From assembly GCA_016793095.1 (NCBI GenBank), contig JAEUJQ010000073.1:62001-126000 (forward strand): DNA of 64,000 nucleotides, written 5' to 3'. The stretch comes from Myxococcaceae bacterium (GTDB lineage Bacteria > Myxococcota > Myxococcia > Myxococcales > Myxococcaceae). Position 1 is the first letter of the stretch, and each line of letters opens with the position of its first letter. The notes below the pieces were generated by a model, which saw nothing but the letters and a program-made list of their open reading frames with translations, was not told the DNA's origin and made no database searches. A program made the position numbers and the translations under genes. Below, in pieces: positions 18,333 through 63,527 of the stretch.

Positions 18333-19381
18333 AGTCACTCGGGTGGGCTGTGGTGGTGGGCATCGCGGCCGCGATCGACGGCTGTACCTGCGCGCAACTG
18401 CCCGACGTGGCGTTTCTCTGCGAGGAGGACGGTGGCTGCGGTCAGCCCGGCTTCGTGTGCGAGCGGTCCACCAGCCTGTGCATCGACCCGAGAGCGGGCG
18501 GCAGCGCAGGAGGGTCGGCGGGTGGCAGCGCAGGCGGCTCGGCGGGTGGCAGCGCAGGAGGCTCCGCGGGTGGCAGCGCAGGAGGGTCGGCGGGTGGCAG
18601 CGCAGGTGGCTCCGCGGGTGGCAGCGCAGGAGGGTCGGCGGGTGGCAACGCAGGCGGCTCCGCGGGTGGCAGCGCAGGAGGGTCGGCGGGTGGCAGCGCA
18701 GGCGGCTCTGCGGGTGGGAGCGCTGGCGGCTCCGCGGGTGGGAGCGGGGGCGGCGCTGCGGGTGGGAGCGCAGGCGGCTCCGCGGGTGGGAGCGCAGGCG
18801 GCTCTGCGGGTGGGAGCGGGGGCGGCTCTGCGGGTGGGAGCGCAGGCGGCTCTGCGGGAGGCAGCGCAGGCGGAAGTGCCGGAGGCTCCGGGTTGTGCGG
18901 AGCCACGTTCGACGGAGGCTCCAGCGGCCAGCTTGTCGATGGCGGAGTGGTCGGTCCCCACAGCCTCGTCTCCCAGCTCTCCGCCACGGTCTCGGGTGGA
19001 AGCGGCGACATCAACGCTGCCGCGCTCGTCGATGGCGACGTCAACACGGCGTGGACGTTGGCCTGCACTGGAACCGGGCCGTTCTGCTGCGAGCCGGCGT
19101 ACGCCACGGTGACGTGGGTGAGGAACGTGACGCTCACGGCCATCGTCGTCCGCACCGCCACCCTGCCGGGCCAGGTGGTGACGGGTCAGCTCGAGCTGCT
19201 CCGGCCCGACGGAGGGACCGCGGTCTCCTATCCGATCCTGCTGGACGGAGCGGATGGCGACTACGTGCAGTACTTCCTTGCAGGACCGGTGGTGCCGCAG
19301 ATCTCCAGCATCCGGTTCTTTCCAGGCCGGGCCACCAGCGCCGCACCGGCCATCTCGGAGATCGAGATCTACGGGAACTGA
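18314..19381 (+). CDS. Stalked lipoprotein with C-terminal discoidin-like domain
   Basis: 355 aa. The signal peptide ends at a Cys-Thr-Cys lipobox-like site (IDGCTC). A small Cys-rich module follows (CEEDGGCGQPGFVCERSTSLC), then an uninterrupted stalk of about 135 residues made of GGSAGGSA repeats. The C-terminal domain (about 195-355) resembles F5/8 type C (discoidin) modules: AALVDGDVNTAWT, then beta strands ending in ISEIEIYGN. Such domains usually bind sugars or surfaces. It overlaps the upstream membrane-protein gene by 19 bp and is last in the FHA-activator/kinase operon. At DNA level the stalk is a minisatellite (about 18497-18890). The same CTC-module-plus-stalk start is seen in the lipoprotein at 58842. 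Confidence 0.85.
   Translation: MARAAVKSLGWAVVVGIAAAIDGCTCAQLPDVAFLCEEDGGCGQPGFVCERSTSLCIDPRAGGSAGGSAGGSAGGSAGGSAGGSAGGSAGGSAGGSAGGSAGGSAGGSAGGNAGGSAGGSAGGSAGGSAGGSAGGSAGGSAGGSGGGAAGGSAGGSAGGSAGGSAGGSGGGSAGGSAGGSAGGSAGGSAGGSGLCGATFDGGSSGQLVDGGVVGPHSLVSQLSATVSGGSGDINAAALVDGDVNTAWTLACTGTGPFCCEPAYATVTWVRNVTLTAIVVRTATLPGQVVTGQLELLRPDGGTAVSYPILLDGADGDYVQYFLAGPVVPQISSIRFFPGRATSAAPAISEIEIYGN
18497..18890. repeat. In-frame minisatellite coding a Gly-Gly-Ser-Ala stalk
   Basis: Tandem imperfect 12- and 24-bp units (GGCAGCGCAGGAGGGTCGGC type) inside the discoidin-like lipoprotein gene. Such repeats are prone to length change by slippage, so stalk length may vary between strains. Confidence 0.85.
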
Positions 19382-33200: not shown

Positions 33201-34490
33201 TCAGGGTCCCACTCGAGGGTCCGTCGAGGCGGGCGCCGGTGCGGGTGGCGCATCGTGTCCCCATGGACCCGGCGCGCGGGACAGCCAGCGGGCCGCTCTC
33301 ACCTCGGCGATGCGCTGGAGCAGCCCGTGCGCAGCCGCGAGGTCGGGGCCATCGGGCAACGGGCTGGTGTCCCGCGCCGCCTCGAGGGCCGGCGCCAGCG
33401 CCTCTGCCTCGGCCAGCACCTCCGACAACGGCACCCCGCCGCCCTTGATGTCGAGGAGCCGCGCCCGCAGCGCGCCAGTCGCCTCGAAGGAAGGCGCTCC
33501 GGTGCGCAGCCACCCGGTCGCGAGGTGGATGAGGCGCAGCAGGTTGTAGGCGTTCCTGGGCGACAGCCGCCGGGCGAACGTCTCACCGTCGTCGTCTCCG
33601 CGGTGCACCACGCCGCCAGCGAGCGCCCAGGCCTTGAGCGACGCGAAGTCGTTGGCGGCGATGAAGCCCTGATCGGCAAGCGAGCGGTACAGCTGCTTCA
33701 GGTACGTCTTCGTCGCCAGCAGCGCCTCGGCCGAAGACGCGTGCTCCCTCGGCGAGAGGTCCGCGAGGCGGGCCGCCACGTCGTCGAGGGTGAGCGCCGG
33801 ATTCGCGCGCAGCCAGTCGAGCACGGTGTCGCGATGCGCGGCGAGGCGCGCCGACTTCGTGAGGGAGTCGAGCTGCCTCAGCGCGTACCGGCCGAAGCTA
33901 CCGAAGAGCTGCTTCGAGACGAAGGCGTGCCGCGCCGAGAGCAGCCATTCCCCCACCTCATCCAGCGCGCGCACAGACGGCACGAAGAGCAGCTCGAGCG
34001 TGTTGGGGTCGGCGCGGAGCGCCTGCGCGATGGTCTTCTCGACTTCCCAGAAGGTGTGGCTGCCGTCAGCGCTCACCAGGTCTCGGGGTGGCTCGACGAG
34101 GCCCGCTGTCCAGCGGAAGGGCAACAGGAACGCCCCCCGCACGTCGGTGTCCGAGGTCGCGTCGGCGAGCCCCCAGGCCCGAGAGCCCACTGTCGCCTCC
34201 AGGACGGCGCATTGGCGCAGAGCGCTCCAGGCCGTCTCTCGCCGCACCGCGAAGGCGGCCTGCCCCTCGCGCCTCGGCAGCAGCTCATCCCGCCGAAACC
34301 ACACCTCACCGAGGCCGAGCACCTGGACGTCGTAGCCGCCGTCACGGGCGCGGGTGACGCGTCCCACCAGCCCGGGGGGAAGCCTGCGCTCGCCGAGCAA
34401 CCGCTCGACGCGCGTCGTCACCTCGGCGCCGTGAGGGAGCACCGACGGGGCGCCGTCGAGGACGTCGAGGGGAGAGGGCCGGCTGTCCAT
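33201..34490 (-). CDS. RlaP-type nucleotidyltransferase, copy 2
   Basis: 429 aa, longer than copy 1. An extra N-terminal domain (about 1-85) has a small beta-like region, GRVTRARDGGYDVQVLGLGEVWFRRDELLPR. The nucleotidyltransferase core follows: VGSRAWGLADATSDTDVRGAFL (about 101-122) with catalytic Asp114 and Asp116. A helical block continues: HTFWEVEKTIAQALRADPNTLELLFVP, where 'DPNTLELL' is the NPN-x-x-E-L signature of COG3541/RlaP. The C-terminal third is helical and includes YALRQLDSLTKSARLAAHR and RNAYNLLRLIHLATGWL. It is first in the minus-strand set. Its start faces the 1.7-kb repeat region at 34491-36234. The two copies are too different for a recent duplication. Confidence 0.83.
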   Translation of the reverse strand: MDSRPSPLDVLDGAPSVLPHGAEVTTRVERLLGERRLPPGLVGRVTRARDGGYDVQVLGLGEVWFRRDELLPRREGQAAFAVRRETAWSALRQCAVLEATVGSRAWGLADATSDTDVRGAFLLPFRWTAGLVEPPRDLVSADGSHTFWEVEKTIAQALRADPNTLELLFVPSVRALDEVGEWLLSARHAFVSKQLFGSFGRYALRQLDSLTKSARLAAHRDTVLDWLRANPALTLDDVAARLADLSPREHASSAEALLATKTYLKQLYRSLADQGFIAANDFASLKAWALAGGVVHRGDDDGETFARRLSPRNAYNLLRLIHLATGWLRTGAPSFEATGALRARLLDIKGGGVPLSEVLAEAEALAPALEAARDTSPLPDGPDLAAAHGLLQRIAEVRAARWLSRAPGPWGHDAPPAPAPASTDPRVGP

Positions 34491-34559: not shown

Positions 34560-34704
34560 GTGCCTCTGTCGGGAGTGAGCTTCCAGTAGCCGCTGTCGAG
34601 CGCGGGCTTCGGGGGCGTGCCTCTGTCGGGAGTGTGCCTCGGTCGGGCGTGCCTCCGTCGGGCGTGCCGGGTGCGTAGCTCGGTCGGGCGTGCCTCCGTC
34701 GGCC
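34560..34704. repeat. Interspersed 15-bp repeat group
   Basis: Six copies of GTGCCTC-N-GTCGG(G/C)(A/C) begin at 34560, 34617, 34634, 34649, 34675 (variant GTAGCTC) and 34690; a seventh copy is at 35022. Spacing is 15-17 bp in the denser part. Seen directly in the sequence. Confidence 0.8.
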
Positions 34705-34859
34705 GTGTGGCTCGTGAGAGCGTGTGACTCGCGTGGATGGAGGGCGCTGTGCGCGCCTGCGTCTTCTGCTCCTCCGACAGCGAGCTACGCCCGGCCGAGC
34801 GAAAGCCCGCGCTCCCCGGGCTACGGGAGGCGGCGTGTGCACTGGCGGCGGCTGTGGCT

Positions 34860-34937
34860 CGTGTGGCTCAGCGGTTCGTGTGGCTCAGCGGTTCGTGTGG
34901 CTCAGCGGTTCGTGTGGCTTGGCTCAGCGGCCGTGTT
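34860..34937. repeat. 17-bp tandem repeat
   Basis: Three perfect consecutive copies of CGTGTGGCTCAGCGGTT (34860-34910) followed by two degenerate copies. GTGTGGCTC recurs at 34695-34713 and 35061-35080, linking this tandem with the neighbouring repeats. Confidence 0.85.
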
Positions 34938-35160
34938 GCTCGGTGCTCGTGAGGGTGTGTGCAGCGCGTGTGCAGCGCGTGTGGCTCTGCGGCACGGCGG
35001 GACGGCGGCACGGCGGCTCGTGTGCCTCCGTCGGCCGTGTGGGCGCGGTGCTCCGTGAGCGCGTGTGGCTCGTGTGGCTCGGCCGCTCGTGTGCGCCAAC
35101 ATCCCGCAGGACTCGCGTCCCCGGTCGCCGCGTCGGCGCGTTCGCCTCGCCGTCAGGACC

Positions 35161-36061
35161 GTCCGTCTCGTCTCGAGTCGTGCAGGAAGGTGGTGGGCGC
35201 AACATCCTGCAGGGCTCGCGTCACCGGTCACGCGTCGGGCGCGTTCGCCTCGCCCGCGGGGCCGTCCGTCTCGTCGCGAGTCGTGCAGGAAGGTGGCGGG
35301 TCGACACGTCGGGCGCGTTCGCCTCACCCGCCGGGCCGTCCGTCTCGTCTCGAGTCGTGCAGTGCAGGACTCGTGTCACCGGTCGCCGCGTCGGGTCCGT
35401 TCGCGTCGCCCGCGGGACCGTCCGTCTTGTCGCGAGTCGTGCAGGAAAATGGTGGGTGCAACATTCTGCAGGACTCGCGGCACTGGTCGCCGCGTCGGGT
35501 GGGTTCGCCTCGCCCGCGGGGCCATCCGTCTCGTCGCGAGTCGTGCAGGAAGGTGGTGGGTCGATACGTCGGGCGCGTTCGCCTCGCCCGCGGGGCCGTC
35601 CGTCTCGTCGCGAGTCGTGCAGGAAGGTGGTGGGTCGACACGTCGGGCGCGTTCGCCTCGCCCGCCGGGTCGTCCGTCGTCTCGAGTCGTGCAGTGCAGG
35701 ACTCGTGTCTCCGGTCGACGCGTCGCGCCCGTTCGCCTCGCCCGCGGGACCGTCCGTCTCGTCGCGAGTCGTGCAGGAAGATGGTGGGCGCAACATTCTG
35801 CAGGACTCGCGGCACTGGTCGCCGCGTCGGGTCCGTTCGCGTCGCCCTCGGGGCCGTCCGTCTCGTCGCGAGTCGTGCACGAAGTTGGTGCGCGCAACAT
35901 TCTGCAGGACTCGCGGCACTGGTCGCCGCGTCGGGCGCGTTCGCGTCGCCCGCGGGGCCGTCCGTCTCGTCGCGAGTCGTGCAGGAAGGTGGTGGGTGCA
36001 ACATTCTGCAGGACTCGCGTCGCCGGTCGCCGCGTCGGGTGCGTTCGCCTCGCTGGCAGGC
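35161..36061. repeat. Mosaic tandem array of ten hairpin-bearing units (about 104, 82 and 74 bp)
   Basis: Ten units each begin with (G/A)TCCGTC(T/G)TGT-like sequence, at 35161, 35264, 35338, 35420, 35524, 35598, 35672, 35752, 35856 and 35960. Lengths are 103, 74, 82, 104, 74, 74, 80, 104, 104 and about 102. Long units contain two arms, CGCGAGTCGTGCAG and CTGCAGGACTCGCG (35763-35776 and 35798-35811 in one), pairing at 13 of 14 positions round a 21-nt loop. The 80-82-bp units lack about 22 bp of the loop but keep the stem. The 74-bp units lack the right arm. A second short inverted repeat, CGGGCG...CGCCCG, occurs in several units. Since 74, 80, 82, 103 and 104 are not multiples of three, reading frame is lost from unit to unit, which argues against a repeat protein. 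Confidence 0.9.
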
Positions 36062-36234
36062 CGTCTGCCTTCGGCGCGTCCAGCGTCGGGTGTGCCGGGC
36101 GTGCCCCTGGCGCCTGCCGCGACCGCTGGCAGTTCCGTTGCGCTCCCGACGGGTCGTCATGTTCAGTGGCGCCCCCTTTCCCCCCGGCGGCGTCACCAGT
36201 ACACAGCCGCCCGCCGAACACCGAGGAGCCCGCC

Positions 36235-37953
36235 ATGACCGCCGCCGTCGCCATTCCGCCTCCGATGCCGCAGTCGCAGCTCGAGACGATTCTCACCCGC
36301 GTCAAGGAGAGCGCCCCCGCGTTCGCCGGCACGACCGTCGACGAGCGCATCGCGTTTCTCCGGCAGCTGCGCGACGGCTACATGAGCATCGCCGAGGAGT
36401 CGGTGCGCCTGGCCTGCGCCTACAAGGGCATTCCCTTCGACAGCCCCGTGTCGGGCGAGGAGTGGCTCGCCGGCCCCATGATCACCCTCCGCGTGCTGCG
36501 CCTCACCGAGTGGGCGCTCACCGAGGTGAAGCAGTACGGCGCGCCGCGCATCGCCGACAAGCTCATCCGCGACCTGCCCGACGGCCGCATCGCGGTGAAG
36601 GCGTTCCCCGGCGACGCGCTCGACTCGGCGCTGCTCGCGAAGCACCTTGGTGAGAACTACATGCAGCCGGGCATCACCCGCGCGAACCTGCGTGACCACC
36701 AGGCGGCGTACTACCGGAAGCCACACCAGGGGCGCGTCTGCCTCGTGCTGGGCGCCGGCAACGTCAACGCCATTCCGCCCACGGACGTCGTGGGGAAGAT
36801 GTTCGTCGAGGGCACGGCCTGCGTGCTGAAGATGAACCCGGTCAACGCCTACCTCGGCCCGCTCATCGAGAAGGCCTTCGCCCCCCTCATCGCCCGCGGC
36901 TTCTTCGCGGTGGTGTACGGCGGCGCCGAAGAGGGCGCGTTCCTCGTGAACCACGCCGCCATCGACGAGGTCCACATCACCGGCTCGGACAAGACGCACG
37001 ACTTCATGGTGTGGGGCCCGCCTGGCCCCGAGCGCGACGCCCGCAAGGCGCGCAACGAGCCGCTGCTCAAGAAGGACATCACCTCGGAGCTCGGCAACAT
37101 CTCGCCCGTCATCGTCGTGCCCGGTCCGTGGGATCAAGCGAGCCTCGAGTACCAGGCGCGCAACGTCGCCGGCATGGTGTGCAACAACGCCAGCTTCAAC
37201 TGTACCGCCGCGAAGCTGCTCGTCACCTCGAAGGCGTCGCCCCACCGGCAGCCGTTCCTCGACGCGCTCAGCCGGCACATGGCGTCGGGCGGCGTGCGGC
37301 ACGGCTACTACCCGGGCGCGGCGGACCGCTGGAAGCGGCTGGTCGAGGGGCGGCCGAACGTGAAGGTCATCGGCGAGGGGAAGGGCGAGCAGCTGCCCTA
37401 CGCCCTCATCACCGACGTCGATCGCGCCGTGAAGGACGACCTCATCTTCACCAGCGAGCCGTGGTGCACCGTCATCAGCGAGACGAGCCTCGATGCGGGC
37501 GACCCGGCGAAGTTCTGCGACGAGGTGACGGCGTTCCTCAACGAGTCGGTCTGGGGAACGCTCGCCGCGAACGTGCTCGTGCACCCCGAGACGATGAAGG
37601 ACCCGGCGGCCAGCGCCGCCGTCGAGAAGATGGTGCGCGAGCTCGAGTACGGCACGGTCGCCATCAACACCTGGGCTGGAGCCGTCTTCGGCATCGGCAA
37701 CTCGCCGTGGGGCGGCCACCCGTCGGCGACGCTGCAGGACATTCAGTCAGGCCGTGGGTGGGTGCACAACAGCCTGCTGCTCGACGGGGTCGAGAAGTTC
37801 GTGCTGCGCGCTCCCGCGAAGAACTTCCCCATCTCGCCCTGGTTCCCGGGCCACAAGACGCAGCACCTGCTCGGGCGCCGGCTGACGACCTTCGAGTACG
37901 CGCCGAGCTGGCTCAAGGTCCCCGGGGTCGCGGCCGCTGCCATCCGGGGCTGA
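36235..37953 (+). CDS. NAD(P)-dependent aldehyde dehydrogenase family protein
   Basis: 572 aa, ATG with GAGGAG at 7-8 bp. ALDH superfamily: a cofactor-binding segment VCLVLGAGNVNAIPPTDVVGKMF (168-190), TACVLKMNP (194-202), EVHITGS (245-251), the general-base motif SELGN with Glu285, and the catalytic loop ASFNCTAAK with nucleophile Cys323. The C-terminal region is longer than in typical 480-500-aa enzymes, and the N-terminal helical part (1-120) is also extended. Expected reaction is oxidation of an aldehyde to an acid with NAD(P)+; the substrate is not predictable here. The reading frame continues open upstream through the repeat array to 35065, but the ribosome site and the homology both begin at this ATG. 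Divergent from the RlaP-type operon. Confidence 0.93.
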   Translation: MTAAVAIPPPMPQSQLETILTRVKESAPAFAGTTVDERIAFLRQLRDGYMSIAEESVRLACAYKGIPFDSPVSGEEWLAGPMITLRVLRLTEWALTEVKQYGAPRIADKLIRDLPDGRIAVKAFPGDALDSALLAKHLGENYMQPGITRANLRDHQAAYYRKPHQGRVCLVLGAGNVNAIPPTDVVGKMFVEGTACVLKMNPVNAYLGPLIEKAFAPLIARGFFAVVYGGAEEGAFLVNHAAIDEVHITGSDKTHDFMVWGPPGPERDARKARNEPLLKKDITSELGNISPVIVVPGPWDQASLEYQARNVAGMVCNNASFNCTAAKLLVTSKASPHRQPFLDALSRHMASGGVRHGYYPGAADRWKRLVEGRPNVKVIGEGKGEQLPYALITDVDRAVKDDLIFTSEPWCTVISETSLDAGDPAKFCDEVTAFLNESVWGTLAANVLVHPETMKDPAASAAVEKMVRELEYGTVAINTWAGAVFGIGNSPWGGHPSATLQDIQSGRGWVHNSLLLDGVEKFVLRAPAKNFPISPWFPGHKTQHLLGRRLTTFEYAPSWLKVPGVAAAAIRG

Positions 37954-53694: not shown

Positions 53695-55524
53695 TTACAG
53701 CTCGCAGGCGGTCGCCGTGCCCAGGTAGCAGATGTCGCCTGAGCCATCGCCGCCGTCGAGGGTGTTCGTCCCGGCGCCGCCATCAAGCAGGTCATCACCC
53801 GCCTCGCCACTGAGACTGTCGTTGCCCCCGTCGCCGTAGAGGGTGTCGTTGCCCCCCGCCCCGAGGATGGTGTCTGCCCCGGCACCGCCGTTGATGACGT
53901 TGTTGCCCGCGTTGCCAGACACCGAGTCGTCTCCCGAGCCGCAGTCGACGTTCTCGACGTCAGCCTCGACGTCGTCGTTCTCACCCGCCAGGCCGTCGTC
54001 GGCCGCGACGCCGTCCATGGTGATGGTGAGCGCAGCGACGCGCGCGCTGTAGTCGACGCGGTCGGTGCCCAGGCCTCCGATGAAGCGGTCGCCGCCGTTC
54101 GTCGCAGAGCCTTCAGCGAAGACGTCATCGCCAGCGCCGCCGTTCAGCACGTCGTTTCCCGCGCCGCCCGTCAGCACGTTCGCCGAGGCGCTGCCGGTGA
54201 TGGTGTCGTCACCGCCGCCGCCGATGACGTTCTCGACGTCGGTCTTGAGGTTGTCGTTCTCGCTGGACTCGCCGTCGTTGGCGGTGCCGTCGAGGGTGAT
54301 GGTGAGGTTCTCGCCCGTGCCGCGCGCGGCGTAGGTCGCGGTGTCGGTGCCCGCGCCGCCGTTGAACACATCGGCTCCGTCGGCGTCCGCGCCGGCGACG
54401 AACGAGTCATTCCCCGTGTCGCCGTTGACCGTGTCGTCGCCGTTCCCGCCCGTCAGCGTGTCGTTCCCGTCGCCGCCGTTGAGCGTGTCGTTGCCATCAC
54501 CGCCGACGAGGGTGTCGGCTCCGGCGCCACCTGAGAGGACGTCGTCGTTCGCGCTCCCCGTCAGGGAGTCATCAGCGGAGCCGCCGGTGACGCCTTCGAC
54601 GTCGGCCGCGATGTCGTCGTTCTCTCCGCTCTCGCCGTCGTTGGCGCCTGCGCCAATGGTGGCGGTGATGGCAGCAGTGCGCGAGGCGTAGCTGACGGTG
54701 TCAACGCCGGCGCCTCCGTTGAAGGTGTCCCCGCCGTTGGGCGCTGCGCCCTCGCTGAACGTGTCGGTTCCCGCGTTGCCGTTGAGCGTGTCAGCCGCGC
54801 CGCCGCCGGCGAGCGTGTCGTTGCCTTCGTCACCTGAGATGACGTCGGCTCCGTCGCCGCCCGTGAGGGCGTCGTTGCCGTCACCGCCGTACACGGTGAG
54901 CACCGCCGTCGCCACCGCGCCCGTGCCTGCGCCGCCCTGGCCCGTGAAGGTGTCGTTGCCAGCACCCAGGCTGACGACGATGGAGTCGACGTTCGCGAAG
55001 TTGATGTCCTTCGAGGTGTCGGAGTTGATGGCGGCTCCATCGGCGCCGAAGGTGATGGTGTCGGCGCCGGTTGACCCCCGAATCTTGAGCGCGTCGTTGC
55101 TACCAGAGACGAGGTCGACGTCCACGCCGACCGACGAGGCCGCGCCAGCCGCGAACGTGCCGTTCATGTAGTCGAGGATGAAGACGTTCGTGCCGCTGCT
55201 GCCGGTGACGTTGATGCGCTTGAGGTTCACGCTGGTGGCCGTGCCGCACGCCTCGCCGTTGACGAGGATGGCGCTGTCCACCGAGCGCTTCGACACCACT
55301 CCGACCTCGTCATCGGCGAGGACGATGGTGGCGACGCCCGAGGCGCCCGTGAAGACGCATGGTGTGGCCAGCGGGGTGAGGGCCTGGTCGGCCTCCTCTA
55401 CGCCACGCCAGCTCGACGGTGTGTCCAGCGCCGTCTCTGCCGGCCGCCCACAGCTCACCGCCAACGCCGTCAGAGTTCCGACGGCGATCGTTCTCCACGT
55501 CAGGCTGCCTCGCTCCCCGTTCAT
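53695..55524 (-). CDS. RTX-type calcium-binding-repeat lipoprotein
   Basis: 609 aa from the ATG ending at 55524. The signal ends at AVSC (Cys25), so it is a lipoprotein, unlike most RTX proteins. A beta domain (about 55-190) is followed by a long array of hemolysin-type nonapeptide repeats (GGxGxDxLxGGxGNDTL...), in four blocks separated by 30-35-residue strands of the kind 'DxVxYAxRxAxxxxTIGxGANDGESGENDDI'. Calcium would fold the repeats into parallel beta-rolls outside the cell. No catalytic domain, RTX secretion signal or C-terminal export motif is obvious, and no type I secretion genes are adjacent. The 295-bp space before flgE (55525-55819) holds no other gene that I can support. Confidence 0.9.
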   Translation of the reverse strand: MNGERGSLTWRTIAVGTLTALAVSCGRPAETALDTPSSWRGVEEADQALTPLATPCVFTGASGVATIVLADDEVGVVSKRSVDSAILVNGEACGTATSVNLKRINVTGSSGTNVFILDYMNGTFAAGAASSVGVDVDLVSGSNDALKIRGSTGADTITFGADGAAINSDTSKDINFANVDSIVVSLGAGNDTFTGQGGAGTGAVATAVLTVYGGDGNDALTGGDGADVISGDEGNDTLAGGGAADTLNGNAGTDTFSEGAAPNGGDTFNGGAGVDTVSYASRTAAITATIGAGANDGESGENDDIAADVEGVTGGSADDSLTGSANDDVLSGGAGADTLVGGDGNDTLNGGDGNDTLTGGNGDDTVNGDTGNDSFVAGADADGADVFNGGAGTDTATYAARGTGENLTITLDGTANDGESSENDNLKTDVENVIGGGGDDTITGSASANVLTGGAGNDVLNGGAGDDVFAEGSATNGGDRFIGGLGTDRVDYSARVAALTITMDGVAADDGLAGENDDVEADVENVDCGSGDDSVSGNAGNNVINGGAGADTILGAGGNDTLYGDGGNDSLSGEAGDDLLDGGAGTNTLDGGDGSGDICYLGTATACEL

Positions 55525-58845: not shown

Positions 58846-60920
58846 GCCGAACCTTCGTCCCTCTTCGTCTGTGGAGCCTGCTGGCGTTCGGGGTCGTGTC
58901 CGCATGTACCTGCGTCACGCCGCCGGAGGATCTCATCTACGCCTGTGAGTCTGACGGCACGTGTCTCGACCCGGCGCGGACCTGCGTGCAGGGTCGGTGC
59001 GTGCTCAGCGGCACTGCGGGCGGCAGGGCAGGTGGATCAGCCGGTGGCGTCGCAGGTGGATCTGCTGGCGGGGCCGCAGGCGGGGTTGCCGGGGGAACGG
59101 CTGGTGGAGACGCTGGCGGAATGGCCGGTGGAGACGCTGGCGGAATGGCCGGTGGAGACGCAGGAGGAATGGCGGGTGGCGACGCCGGTGGTTCGGCTGG
59201 AGGAAGCGCGGGTGGAAGCGCTGGTGGAACGGCTGGTGGAAGCGCTGGAGGAACGGCTGGAGGAAGCGCCGGCGGGACAGCGGGTGGAAGCGCGGGCGGC
59301 TCGGCCGGTGGATCGGCTGGAGGCAGCGCAGGCGGAACGGCTGGAGGCAGCGCAGGCGGAACGGCTGGAGGCAGCGCAGGCGGAACCGCTGGTGGAAGCG
59401 CAGGCGGAACGGCTGGTGGAAGCGCAGGCGGAACGGCTGGAGGCAGCGCGGGCGGCTCGGCCGGTGGAAGCGCGGGCGGCTCGGCCGGTGGAAGCGCAGG
59501 CGGCTCGGCCGGTGGAAGCGCAGGCGGCTCGGCCGGTGGAAGCGCGGGCGGCAGTGGCGACGCAGGTTGCGTGCCCGGCCCCGGGGTGGACTTGCCTGAC
59601 GAGAACGGAATCGACTCCAACTGCGACGGCATCGACGGCGACGCGACCCTGGCGGCCTTCGTCGATGGCGTGGGCGGACAGGACACGAACGCTGGAACCC
59701 GACTGGCCCCGTTCCGCACCATCACCCGCGGCGTGGACGCCGGACGGCCCCAGGTGCTCGTCGCGAGCGGGACCTATGGCGAGGACCTCGGGCTTGGCAC
59801 CGGCAACTTCGGCGTCTACGGCGGCTACACCGCCTCGAGCTGGGCGCGCACGGCCGTGCGCCCCGACCTGACGCGCCCGCTCGTCGTCGTCGGTGACGGT
59901 GGCACCCTGGCGCTCGACTTCCTCCGCGTGTCGGTCCCGGACACGATGTCGTCGCGCGCCGCCGTGTACGCGCTGATCATGGAGAACGCTTCCGCGGGCG
60001 TCGTGGTCAGCAGGTGCGAGTTCTCCGCAGGTCGCGGTGGGCACGGCGTCGCGGGCGCTCCCGGCCTCATCGGCGCCAACGGGAGTCCCGGGCAGCCGGG
60101 CGCCGCGGGTGATGACGGCGGCATGGGTGGCACCGGTGGCACGTCACCCTGCGGAGTGCCTGGCGCGCGGGGCGGGCGGGGCGGCACGTTGACCTTCATC
60201 GACGGTGAAGACACCGAAGACGGCGGGGCGGGCGGCGTGGGCGTGTCGTGCGCGTCGCCTCCCTGCTCCGGCAACTCAGGCGCGTCGGGGTCGAATGGCG
60301 CGGACGGGGGACGGGGGCCAGATGGTGCGAACGGCACCAGCCCCGGAGTCATCGTCGCGAGGCGCTGGGCGCCGGTCGATGGTCGGCCGGGCGACGCAGG
60401 GCAGCCGGGCTTTGCTGGTCGGCCAGCCTCGGGCGGCGGCGCCGTCATCGATGTCGACGCAGGGGTGGCTGCGAGGGGAGCGGGCGCAGGCGGCTCGGGC
60501 TCCGGCGGGTGTCCCGGCCTGGGCGGCGGCGGCGGCGAGTCGGGCGGGGCGTCCATCGCAGCGCTCCTCATCAGCTCGTCGCCGGTGTTCGATCGCTGCA
60601 GCTTCACGACGATTGGCGGCGGCAACGGCGGCGGCGTGGGCCCGGGCGGCGAGGGCGGGCTCGGCGGCGCAGGGGGCCCGGGCGGCACCGGGGAGGCCCT
60701 CGGCGGGCTCTTCTTCGCGGGCGACGGCGGCACCGGAGGCCGCGGGGGCGCAGGCGGGCGCGGAGGGAATGGCGGGCAGGGCGCTGGCGGACCTTCCGTG
60801 GGCATCTGGTGCGATGGCCCTTCGACGCCGTCGCTGATGACGCCCAGCTTCACCATCGGCCCCGGCGGGATGGGCGCCGTGAATGGCCTCTCTACCCAGC
60901 GGACAGGCACCTGTCCCTGA
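58842..60920 (+). CDS. Stalked, Gly-rich lipoprotein with beta-helix-like domain
   Basis: 692 aa, start overlapping the previous stop (ATGA). The signal ends at a CTC site (VSACTC), followed by a Cys-rich module (CESDGTCLDPARTCVQGRC) that matches the one at 18314. A stalk of about 180 residues of GGxAGG repeats follows (about 59005-59555). A short NCDGIDGDATLAAF motif is MopE-like. Next is a beta-helix-like/DUF1565 region (FVDGVGGQDTNAGTRLAPFRTITRGVDAG). The C-terminal 300 residues are dominated by a collagen-like Gly-x-y region (GAPGLIGANGSPGQPGAAGDDGG...), unusual outside eukaryotes and phage. Probably a long surface fibre. Second half of the repeated two-gene module. Confidence 0.83.
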   Translation: MSRTFVPLRLWSLLAFGVVSACTCVTPPEDLIYACESDGTCLDPARTCVQGRCVLSGTAGGRAGGSAGGVAGGSAGGAAGGVAGGTAGGDAGGMAGGDAGGMAGGDAGGMAGGDAGGSAGGSAGGSAGGTAGGSAGGTAGGSAGGTAGGSAGGSAGGSAGGSAGGTAGGSAGGTAGGSAGGTAGGSAGGTAGGSAGGTAGGSAGGSAGGSAGGSAGGSAGGSAGGSAGGSAGGSAGGSGDAGCVPGPGVDLPDENGIDSNCDGIDGDATLAAFVDGVGGQDTNAGTRLAPFRTITRGVDAGRPQVLVASGTYGEDLGLGTGNFGVYGGYTASSWARTAVRPDLTRPLVVVGDGGTLALDFLRVSVPDTMSSRAAVYALIMENASAGVVVSRCEFSAGRGGHGVAGAPGLIGANGSPGQPGAAGDDGGMGGTGGTSPCGVPGARGGRGGTLTFIDGEDTEDGGAGGVGVSCASPPCSGNSGASGSNGADGGRGPDGANGTSPGVIVARRWAPVDGRPGDAGQPGFAGRPASGGGAVIDVDAGVAARGAGAGGSGSGGCPGLGGGGGESGGASIAALLISSSPVFDRCSFTTIGGGNGGGVGPGGEGGLGGAGGPGGTGEALGGLFFAGDGGTGGRGGAGGRGGNGGQGAGGPSVGIWCDGPSTPSLMTPSFTIGPGGMGAVNGLSTQRTGTCP
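59005..59560. repeat. In-frame minisatellite coding a Gly-Gly-x-Ala-Gly-Gly stalk
   Basis: Tandem 12-, 15- and 18-bp units of GGCGGAACGGCTGGAGGCAG type within the lipoprotein gene. All three forward frames and the reverse strand are open through it, which creates false long frames. Confidence 0.85.
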
Positions 60921-61028: not shown

Positions 61029-63527
61029 ATGCGTCACCTCACGCTCGTCGGAGCCGTCTTCACTCTTGCTTTCGCCTCGAGCTGCAGCTGCGGAGTCGTT
61101 CCCGTCGATGACGACGGCGGCGTCGCGGGTGGCTCCGCCGGGAGCGCTGGCGGTGGAAACGCCGGTGGTGGGAACGCCGGCGGGGGCAGCGCAGGCGGAG
61201 CGGCTGGCGGAGTGGGTGGCGGGGACGCGGGCGGCAGCAGCGCAGGCGGAGCGGCTGGCGGGGACGCGGGAGGCGCTGCAGGCGGCGCGGTGGCGGGAGG
61301 CGCTGCAGGCGGCGCGGTGGCGGGAGGCGCTGCAGGCGGCGCAGTCGCGGGAGGTGTTGCAGGCGGAGCAGTCGCGGGAGGCGTTGCAGGCGGCGCGGTG
61401 GCGGGAGGCGTCGCGGGCGGCGCGGTCGCGGGAGGAACGGCGGGTGGAGCCGTGGCCGGAGGCTCGGCGGGCGGGGCCGCTCAGACCGACGTCTACGTCT
61501 GCGGCTCGTGTCCTGGCGCGAGCATGTCGAACCCGGGAACGCAGAACCGTCCCGTCGACACCATCAGTCGCGGCATTCAGCTCGCGGTGATGAACAACCT
61601 CGGCCGGGTCTTCGTGGCGTCCCGCTACGGCGGCGTGATCATGAGCTACTCGGAGGACGTCACGGTCGCCGAGGGCCACTCCCTCGATGGGCGCTGGTCC
61701 GTGACCGGCACCAACGGCAACTTCACCTGGGCCCGCTCGGCGCCACGCACTCAGCTGCGCAACACGGCCGCGAGCGGCCTCAAGTTCCCGCCGGGCATCA
61801 CCGGCGCCACCGTCGTCGATGGGTTCTCCATCACCAAGGCCGGCGCGGGGTTGATGGGCGGGCGCATCGCCGGCATCACCGTCAACGCTGGAGCGCCGCT
61901 GGTGCGGGACTTCGACATCGACGCGCCGGCCATCAGCATCGGCTCGGCCACCGACGCCATCGGCATCGACGTCATTGGCTCGAGCACCAGCATCGGAGGC
62001 CCTTCGTTCCAGGGTGGCAACACGGGCCCCAGCACCGTCACGGCGGGGACTGGTACCACCAGCAGCATCGCCCTGGCGGTAGCGGCGCACCGCGTGACGG
62101 TGAACAACGTCGACCTGACTGGCGAGGGCGCGGGGCAGCTCTCGGCCGGCGTCGTGCTGGTGAACGGCAGCGGCTCGACGTTCAACCGGGGCACCTACAC
62201 GGCCGGCGCCGCGGCGACCTGCGCGGGCTTCTCGGCGACCGGTGAGTCGGGCGGCGTACGCGTCGAGGGCGTGACGGCGACCGGCTGTCCCCGCGTGCCC
62301 AACATCTTGAACCCGCCCCGGTTCGGCGCGGGTGTGCTCTTCGACGGCTGTCCGCCGCTGGGCGTTGGTGGCGCCGCGCCCATCGTGCGCAACGTCATCG
62401 CCACCGGCGGAGTCGTCGGAGGGAGCAACAGCCTCGCGGTCGGCGGCGCGTCGACCGACGGTTGCGGCGTTCGCTTCGAGGGCACGACGCCAGGCGCGGC
62501 CGTCTTCACCGGGACGACGCAGGGTGGTGGCGGGTTGGGTGCAGGCCCAGAGACGACCATCGGCATCGCGTGCTCCTTCGCCGGGCTGCGGAACCAGAAC
62601 GGGGCCGATGCCCGCTGCTCGGTGGCGGGCGTGACGGCGGTGGGCGGGGCCGCGGGCGCCACCAACTCCATCGGGCTCCTCTGTGACGGCACCTGCGCGA
62701 ACCAGCCTGGCTCCTGCCGCGGCTCGTGTGAGGAGGTCGTCAACAACACCTTCTCCGCGGGCTCGGGCGTCTCGATGGTGCACGTCCTCGTTCGGCACTC
62801 GTCTCCGGGGGTGCGCCAGAACTTCATCGGCGCCGGCTCCACGGCCGTCACGTGCGGCAACAACGCGGCGGTGAGCGGCCTCACGATTCAGGGCTCGGCC
62901 TCGACGGTGGTGAACAACCTCATCGTCGCCGGGCAGTGCCTCACCAGCATCGGCGTCGCACACGTGCTCGCGCTGCGCAGCGATGGGAGCACGCCGTCGC
63001 CGACCTTCCACTCGAACACCATCGTCTCTCACCCGGTGACGGGCGGCGGCACGAGCGTGCTGACGAGCCTGGGGGTGAACCTCACCGGGCCCGCGGGCAG
63101 CGCCAGCGCGCTGGTCGGTGGCAGCTGGCGCAACAACATCATCTTCGCTGGCTCCAGCCAGGGCGCCGGCTCGCGGTCCATCGCGTTTCGAGAAGACGGC
63201 CCAGGCGTCGATCCGTCTTTCTTGACGAACAACCTCTTCTTCGCGCCCGGCGGAGGGACCCCCACCACCCCGGCGCTCTACTTCGACGAGGGCGCCACCA
63301 CGCTGACGACGGCGATGGCCGTCAACCTGCTGATGGGAGCGGCCGGCAACCTCGCAGGCGACCCGCGCTTCCAGAACGCGGGCAATGGCAACTACAGCCT
63401 CGATGGCAACTCGCCAGCGCGTGAGGCCGGAACGACCATGGGCGCGCCTGCGCAGGACCTCATCCGGGCGCCGCGGCCGAACCCGACGAACACGCCCCCC
63501 GACATCGGCTGCTACGAGGTGCCGTGA
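61029..63527 (+). CDS. Stalked lipoprotein with parallel beta-helix and choice-of-anchor-Q end
   Basis: 832 aa, ATG with GGAG at 8 bp. The signal ends at SSCSC. A GGxAGG/GGAVAGG stalk covers about residues 30-155. The rest is a long right-handed beta-helix built of short strands and turns rich in Asn, Gly and Thr (DTISRGIQLAVMNNLGRVFVAS...; VVDGFSITKAG; VVNNLIVAGQCL; TFHSNTIVSHPVTGG). It ends DPRFQNAGNGNYSLDGNSPAREAGTTMGAPAQDLIRAPRPNPTNTPPDIGCYEVP, the choice-of-anchor-Q signature. Beta-helix proteins of this kind bind or cleave polysaccharide, but no catalytic residues are identifiable. It is 108 bp after the previous stalked lipoprotein and probably follows it in expression. Confidence 0.86.
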   Translation: MRHLTLVGAVFTLAFASSCSCGVVPVDDDGGVAGGSAGSAGGGNAGGGNAGGGSAGGAAGGVGGGDAGGSSAGGAAGGDAGGAAGGAVAGGAAGGAVAGGAAGGAVAGGVAGGAVAGGVAGGAVAGGVAGGAVAGGTAGGAVAGGSAGGAAQTDVYVCGSCPGASMSNPGTQNRPVDTISRGIQLAVMNNLGRVFVASRYGGVIMSYSEDVTVAEGHSLDGRWSVTGTNGNFTWARSAPRTQLRNTAASGLKFPPGITGATVVDGFSITKAGAGLMGGRIAGITVNAGAPLVRDFDIDAPAISIGSATDAIGIDVIGSSTSIGGPSFQGGNTGPSTVTAGTGTTSSIALAVAAHRVTVNNVDLTGEGAGQLSAGVVLVNGSGSTFNRGTYTAGAAATCAGFSATGESGGVRVEGVTATGCPRVPNILNPPRFGAGVLFDGCPPLGVGGAAPIVRNVIATGGVVGGSNSLAVGGASTDGCGVRFEGTTPGAAVFTGTTQGGGGLGAGPETTIGIACSFAGLRNQNGADARCSVAGVTAVGGAAGATNSIGLLCDGTCANQPGSCRGSCEEVVNNTFSAGSGVSMVHVLVRHSSPGVRQNFIGAGSTAVTCGNNAAVSGLTIQGSASTVVNNLIVAGQCLTSIGVAHVLALRSDGSTPSPTFHSNTIVSHPVTGGGTSVLTSLGVNLTGPAGSASALVGGSWRNNIIFAGSSQGAGSRSIAFREDGPGVDPSFLTNNLFFAPGGGTPTTPALYFDEGATTLTTAMAVNLLMGAAGNLAGDPRFQNAGNGNYSLDGNSPAREAGTTMGAPAQDLIRAPRPNPTNTPPDIGCYEVP
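61120..61480. repeat. In-frame minisatellite coding the third stalk
   Basis: Tandem 12-18-bp units of GGAGGCGCTGCAGGCGGCGC type in the beta-helix lipoprotein gene, encoding GGAVAGGAAGGAV. Similar in kind to those at 18497 and 59005. Confidence 0.82.

Follow-up and report, generated by a model that had tools for sequence, protein, structure and literature searches.

The DNA analysed here, a stretch of 64,000 nucleotides from the genome of a Myxococcaceae bacterium (the window), contains an array of ten tandem units on the + strand at 35171-36073. Two open reading frames (ORFs) begin on either side of it and read away from it, at 33201-34490 on the minus strand and 36235-37953 on the plus strand. 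Its long units carry a palindrome that recurs through the genome from which the window comes (the source genome), and palindromes of the same geometry lie at the sides of genes encoding an AbiEi-like region fused to a nuclease domain. Our reading, to which we give a probability of about 0.68, is that the array is a satellite grown from interspersed palindromes similar to repetitive extragenic palindromic (REP) sequences, and that these palindromes are cognate sites of an AbiEi-nuclease.

Units of the array and their decay

The array was delimited by an anchor search, Tandem Repeats Finder and unit identities (81-96% among units). Unit starts are at 35171, 35274, 35348, 35430, 35534, 35608, 35680, 35762, 35866 and 35970, with the end of the final unit near 36073. 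Unit lengths of 103, 74, 82, 104, 74, 72, 82, 104, 104 and 104 bp reproduce exactly the succession of long (L), short (S) and middle (M) units, L-S-M-L-S-S-M-L-L-L, described in a first-pass annotation made from the sequence alone. The unit structures given there also hold. Arms of the long unit pair at 13 of 14 positions around a 21-nt loop; the middle unit, said to have lost about 22 bp of loop and kept the stem, lacks exactly 22 nt when aligned with L10 and retains both outer arms; the short unit, described as having no right arm, lacks a 30-bp stretch that includes this arm and keeps the left one. The count of ten units stands as well, but an incomplete extra unit in front of them had been overlooked (~35093-35170, + strand). 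It begins mid-palindrome and comprises the right palindrome half and the spacer, with blastn showing 89% identity to the array at 35097-35157.

Five palindromes of the array are intact, each 45 bp long, and were recovered in arm-pattern and covariance-model searches: 35174-35218 in L1, 35433-35477 in L4, 35765-35809 in L8, 35869-35913 in L9, and 35973-36017 in L10. When up to three mismatches were allowed, the arm pattern gave 10 strand matches, i.e. the five palindromes on both strands, compared to 0.02 expected in shuffled sequences. Units M3 and M7 have loop-less palindromes at 35352-35372 (22-nt loop deleted relative to L10) and 35684-35704, each seen in alignment and as a covariance-model match. 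Alignment also defines the deletion of 30 bp with the right arm in unit S2 (35274-35347, + strand) and the same right-arm deletion in S5 and S6 (together 35534-35679, + strand).

Block S2-M3-L4 is 94% identical to block S6-M7-L8, and for this reason a single loop deletion and a single arm deletion, with later duplications of whole blocks, best account for the mosaic. The mixed unit lengths are ordinary satellite evolution. Parts of the site are gone from five of the ten units (three S, two M), so strong selection does not seem to act on every unit. Other short degenerate tandem repeats, with periods of 15, 17, 11 and 8 bp, occur at 34613-35030 in the same intergenic stretch.

A palindrome dispersed through the genome

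The array hairpin is a 45-bp palindrome, CGAGTCCTGCA-N23-TGCAGGACTCG, composed of 21+3+21 bp. Its outer arm is 11-14 bp long and its inner part 23 nt, and the common plan 11+4+6+3+6+4+11 describes an outer arm, a mostly unpaired 4x4 spacer, an inner arm and a 3-nt centre. Since the second, inner stem is present in many copies, the true element is 45-51 bp long. Mimicry of the tRNA T-arm (TTCGAGTCCTGC) was dismissed because the order of arms is reversed. Integron attC sites, suggested by the unpaired spacer, were considered unlikely, as the copies stand singly and are scattered.

A blastn search of the source genome revealed that the hairpin recurs elsewhere, embedded in unrelated flanks. The pattern GAGTCNTGCA-N{12,30}-TGCAGGACTC disclosed 15 forward and 12 reverse matches, every one of them 43 bp long (45 bp including the outer C and G), and the reversed control pattern of these arms gave 0 matches. 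With the covariance model, 48 matches were obtained over both strands, corresponding to ~23 intact copies at ~13 sites and, in addition, to the two M units. Several of the sites are independent tandem arrays, and the recurring tandem copies have different spacers (104 in the window array; 86, 103 and 111 at C65:189 kb; 216 on contig C55; 112 on contig C43). A plain minisatellite confined to its locus is rejected by this dispersal. A long insertion sequence or miniature inverted-repeat transposable element with these terminal repeats is rejected too, because exact 12-nt arms are nearly confined to the 45-bp palindrome (one lone arm among 26). The first-pass annotation had presented the array as the item of interest; the real element, however, is the dispersed 45-bp palindrome linked to AbiEi-nuclease genes.

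All examined palindrome sites of the source genome are intergenic, and so are 36 of 37 sites across three genomes, where coding sequence makes up 74% of the loci. Among 32 sites for which both neighbours are known, 3 are positioned between divergent genes and 12 between convergent genes. The last number would suit hairpins acting as structured RNA or as bidirectional transcription terminators, as would the good folding of the L-unit hairpin as RNA (z = -4.8), but the S unit folds no better than shuffles, no T tract is found next to the hairpin in the sequence read, and the array is located between outward-reading ORFs. Furthermore, the covariation score of 16 genome copies is 0.052, compared to 0.049 in shuffled columns (196 of 500 shuffles as high), and a search of Rfam gave no match; a structured RNA was rejected on these two grounds. 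Outer arms are nearly invariant in sequence across copies, and this conservation together with absent covariation makes a DNA site likelier than an RNA element. Overall, the explanation by RNA or terminators is very unlikely. Of the two options in the first-pass annotation, a structured RNA or a protein-binding array, the latter remains, along with its exclusion of a protein repeat and its statement that no described family has this pattern, which holds for Rfam and for the literature searched.

AbiEi-nuclease genes beside the palindromes

The presumed partner gene was found by comparing palindrome-adjacent ORFs of different genomes. A gene on contig C43 of the source genome has palindromes on both sides, and the same arrangement was observed for its homologue (56% identity) in a genome of the same genus (G003), in which the palindrome sequence is different. 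The spacer in the window array is ~80% identical to the spacer between palindromes of the C43 gene and is common to C43 only, thus tying the array to gene-linked copies.

Residues 4-179 of the C43 protein are AbiEi-like (PADLOC AbiEi, E = 7e-32), and similar results were obtained for three other proteins. This region is followed by a Vsr-type nuclease domain, DUF559 / REase_MTES_1575, and either DUF559 or MTES_1575 was detected in 14-15 of 16 family members. Invariant acidic residues of the nuclease family are E205, D236, E247 and D249, while profile matches of the protein include 3r3p (a Vsr-like mobile intron protein, E = 1.5e-4) and 3hrl. A search with a two-protein profile disclosed the same gene type between palindromes at two Nakamurella loci; an AlphaFold model of one Nakamurella protein, based on only two sequences, has a predicted local distance difference test (pLDDT) value of 44, too low for use. 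No relatives were found in searches of IMG/VR and phages. In Tsukamurella tyrosinosolvens, like Nakamurella a member of the Actinomycetota, genes WP_068740572.1 and WP_170181078.1, reached via plasmid-collection records, have matching palindromes on both sides. The palindrome of WP_068740572.1 occurs in at least 7 places across three records of its strain, and the best place in each record is without an annotated feature.

The source genome also contains a second AbiEi-DUF559 gene, a paralogue at C29:5028-5978. Nine palindromes around it (G000:C29:4482-6479, loci L159 and L180) represent another family, CGAGAACA...TGTTCTCG, mostly 45 bp long. Five of the nine constitute a tandem array of 87-bp units just upstream of the gene, and five further copies of the family are on contigs C76, C90 and C93, with 0 matches for the control pattern. 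As the C29 pair repeats the C43 pattern, gene, cognate palindrome, dispersal and tandem arrays are found together twice in this genome.

To assess the link between gene and palindrome, a flank census was made of all such genes in nine genomes, excluding the seed loci and one near-duplicate; a palindrome was considered strong if it scored at least 15 and was within 300 bp of the gene. Among non-seed genes, 9 of 23 are accompanied by a strong palindrome, compared to 7 of 177 controls (p = 5e-6). The corresponding numbers for genes flanked on either side by matching palindromes are 5 of 23 and 1 of 177 (p = 7e-5). Palindrome similarity follows protein similarity, with a Mantel r of 0.47 (0.34 after removal of near-duplicates), and 0 of 5000 permutations reached these values. 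These results bear on the possibility that the array is a plain minisatellite beside an unrelated intergenic palindrome family, which was spread by an unknown or extinct transposase and is linked to the nuclease only by coincidence. Such a minisatellite would be in accord with the other short tandem repeats in the intergenic stretch, with S and M units that resemble neutral decay, and with many family genes having no palindrome. It is nevertheless improbable, since palindromes are enriched next to the genes in several lineages, occur on both flanks, and belong to a second independent pair in the source genome.

Arms of the source genome are absent from 20 relatives. Two of the genomes studied have their own dispersed palindromes, exactly 45 bp long and of the same geometry: G058, from the same family (CGAGTCGCAYGAAA...TTTYRTGCGACTCG; loci L144-L148), and G003 (CGAGTCTGAA...TTCAGACTCG; loci L120-L143). 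A scan of 84,980 species with the source-genome arm revealed dispersed families in Nakamurella-type metagenome-assembled genomes (MAGs), with a 42-bp core and longer arms, and a dispersed 45-bp family in Solirubrobacterales MAGs. Arm identity in these distant families was selected and may be due to chance, because that arm was the query. The 10-nt arm that recurs identically in Actinomycetota and phage contigs was likewise regarded as a possible chance match and not as evidence of homology, since these letters had been searched for and the likeness mostly stops at them.

Three related viral contigs in IMG/VR (L070, L071 and L072) have one identical 46-bp palindrome with GAGTCCTGCA arms, in a single place each and possibly by chance; two other single matches were also obtained. 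In Solirubrobacterales MAGs, homologous genes from two species (loci L165 and L174, 70% identity) have a common palindrome arm, CCCGTGGTTCCTTTT. Loci L171 and L172 of Nakamurella-type MAGs (~1.4-3.7 kb) contain a further AbiEi-DUF559 gene; it is flanked on either side by palindromes of 69 bp, GGATGATC...GATCATCC, and another copy is located 1.2 kb downstream.

Elsewhere in the window, 27-bp repeats at 53804-54517 translate, on the minus strand, to GDGNDTLNG-like nonapeptides, recognized by eye as RTX-type calcium-binding repeats. At 18494-18873, 59094-59551 and 61257-61474, tandem repeats of 24 and 27 bp keep the reading frame and are rich in Gly/Ala codons; they are probably low-complexity protein regions.

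Predicted function and relation to known systems

AbiEi antitoxins bind as monomers to a pair of inverted repeats, each 23 bp long and separated from the other by 3 bp; Rv2827c occupies two of these pairs arranged in tandem (PMC7319586). Palindromes near the C43 and C29 genes have 21+3+21 bp, compared to 23+3+23 in AbiEi operators. In addition, a palindrome of 45 bp is located on plasmid P6 of Deinococcus gobiensis (L193), ~26 bp upstream of a true AbiEi gene (at 2465, in an AbiEi/AbiEii pair); it is likely an operator and equals the elements described here in size. No clear palindrome was detected at two further true AbiEi genes. Genes of the AbiEii nucleotidyltransferase toxin adjoin the true AbiEi genes looked at. 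On the basis of the similar geometry and the P6 palindrome, the palindromes are probably bound by the nuclease through its AbiEi part. That the nuclease may also spread them, as REP-associated tyrosine transposases (RAYTs) are thought to do for REPs, is proposed tentatively.

In the mechanism we suggest, two monomers would occupy the palindrome through their AbiEi parts, one on each inverted half-site, like true AbiEi antitoxins, and the gene-adjacent palindromes would be both operators and cognate sites of the nuclease. Other intergenic places could be reached by nuclease cutting and subsequent copying repair, or by recombination, and local duplication together with the spacer would lead to tandem arrays. 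The main rival explanation is a scattered regulon, with the AbiEi-nuclease as regulator of many selected operators in gene control or chromosome organisation, the array as a sink of extra sites, and nothing mobile. AbiEi proteins are indeed autoregulators that bind inverted repeats, sites are intergenic, and the palindrome geometry suits an operator. We nevertheless consider a regulon unlikely, as only 3 of 32 sites are between divergent genes and 12 have convergent neighbours, a position in which promoters are not to be expected; moreover, arms are wholly different between species of one genus, yet local amplification recurs, and S and M units have lost the site.

Several observations weigh against a satellite built of nuclease-cognate palindromes. 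About half of the family genes are without a clear palindrome in reach, control genes have hairpins too, some of them likely terminators, the window array is on contig C65 and the presumed partner gene on C43, the three S and two M units of the array have no intact site, and neither an empty site nor a target duplication was found. Arms for the Mantel test were picked by eye, and the first loci, found via palindromes, were excluded from the enrichment tests.

Interspersed palindromes without a known partner exist in many bacterial genomes, and the study of CGTC-tagged REPs describes their partner as an open question (PMC3733652). A gene family situated beside palindromes in several lineages provides a testable partner, and the association suggests a role for a widespread family now labelled DUF559 or 'AbiEi domain-containing'. 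If the nuclease also spreads the palindromes, it would be a second, unrelated solution to the presumed job of RAYTs, and the origin of some bacterial satellites would be explained. More broadly, and with considerable doubt, AbiEi-Vsr/EDxHD fusions and their repeats might constitute a selfish class in which the fusion recognises cognate ~41-69-bp palindromes, copies them into intergenic sites, and so seeds species-specific families and satellites across distant bacterial phyla; this would be a counterpart of REP-RAYT in which a PD-(D/E)XK/Vsr-type nuclease replaces HUH chemistry.

No pairing of such palindromes with an AbiEi-nuclease was found in the literature searched, which mostly did not include subscription papers and preprints. 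None of the DUF559 papers found there deals with repeats of this kind, judging by title and abstract; one is about a Vsr-like DUF559 protein from Caulobacter. Operators of AbiE type IV toxin-antitoxin systems (AbiEi, Rv2827c; PMC7319586) share with the system described here an AbiEi-type protein and inverted repeats 3 bp apart, with halves of 23 bp instead of 21 bp, whereas the AbiEi part of the present protein carries a fused nuclease domain and the sites are also downstream, genome-dispersed and arrayed. EDxHD/Vsr-like homing endonucleases (I-Bth0305I type, PDB 3r3p) have a nuclease domain related by profile, but the family described here has no intron or intein host, has an AbiEi DNA-binding region in front, and is accompanied by dispersed palindromes. 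CGTC-tagged REPs are similarly dispersed palindromes; they occur in several phyla, and no transposase is known for them (PMC3733652). They differ in having an 8-9-bp stem, a 4-5-nt loop, a one-sided tag and a CCA-like tail, compared to the 45-51 bp and other structure of our elements, although some copies in the source genome happen to carry CGTC before the arm. Myxobacteria, actinobacteria and DUF559 are not mentioned in that study of CGTC REPs.

The closest parallel is with REPs and bacterial interspersed mosaic elements (BIMEs) and their RAYTs (TnpA-REP, 'REPtrons'). Both systems have many short intergenic palindromes in species-specific families, tandem groups, and a single-copy gene flanked by its own palindromes. 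The partner of REPs is a Y1 HUH transposase, while here it is an AbiEi-Vsr/EDxHD nuclease, and a REP is a one-sided tagged hairpin of 20-40 bp, compared to 45 bp with two 21-bp half-sites here. Y1 transposase PF01797 was not found in the source genome (98.65% complete; control genomes were positive), and the GTAG tag of REPs was not seen in aligned copies with 6-nt flanks; for these two reasons membership in REP-RAYT is rejected. The palindrome-nuclease system would work like REP-RAYT without being a member of it.
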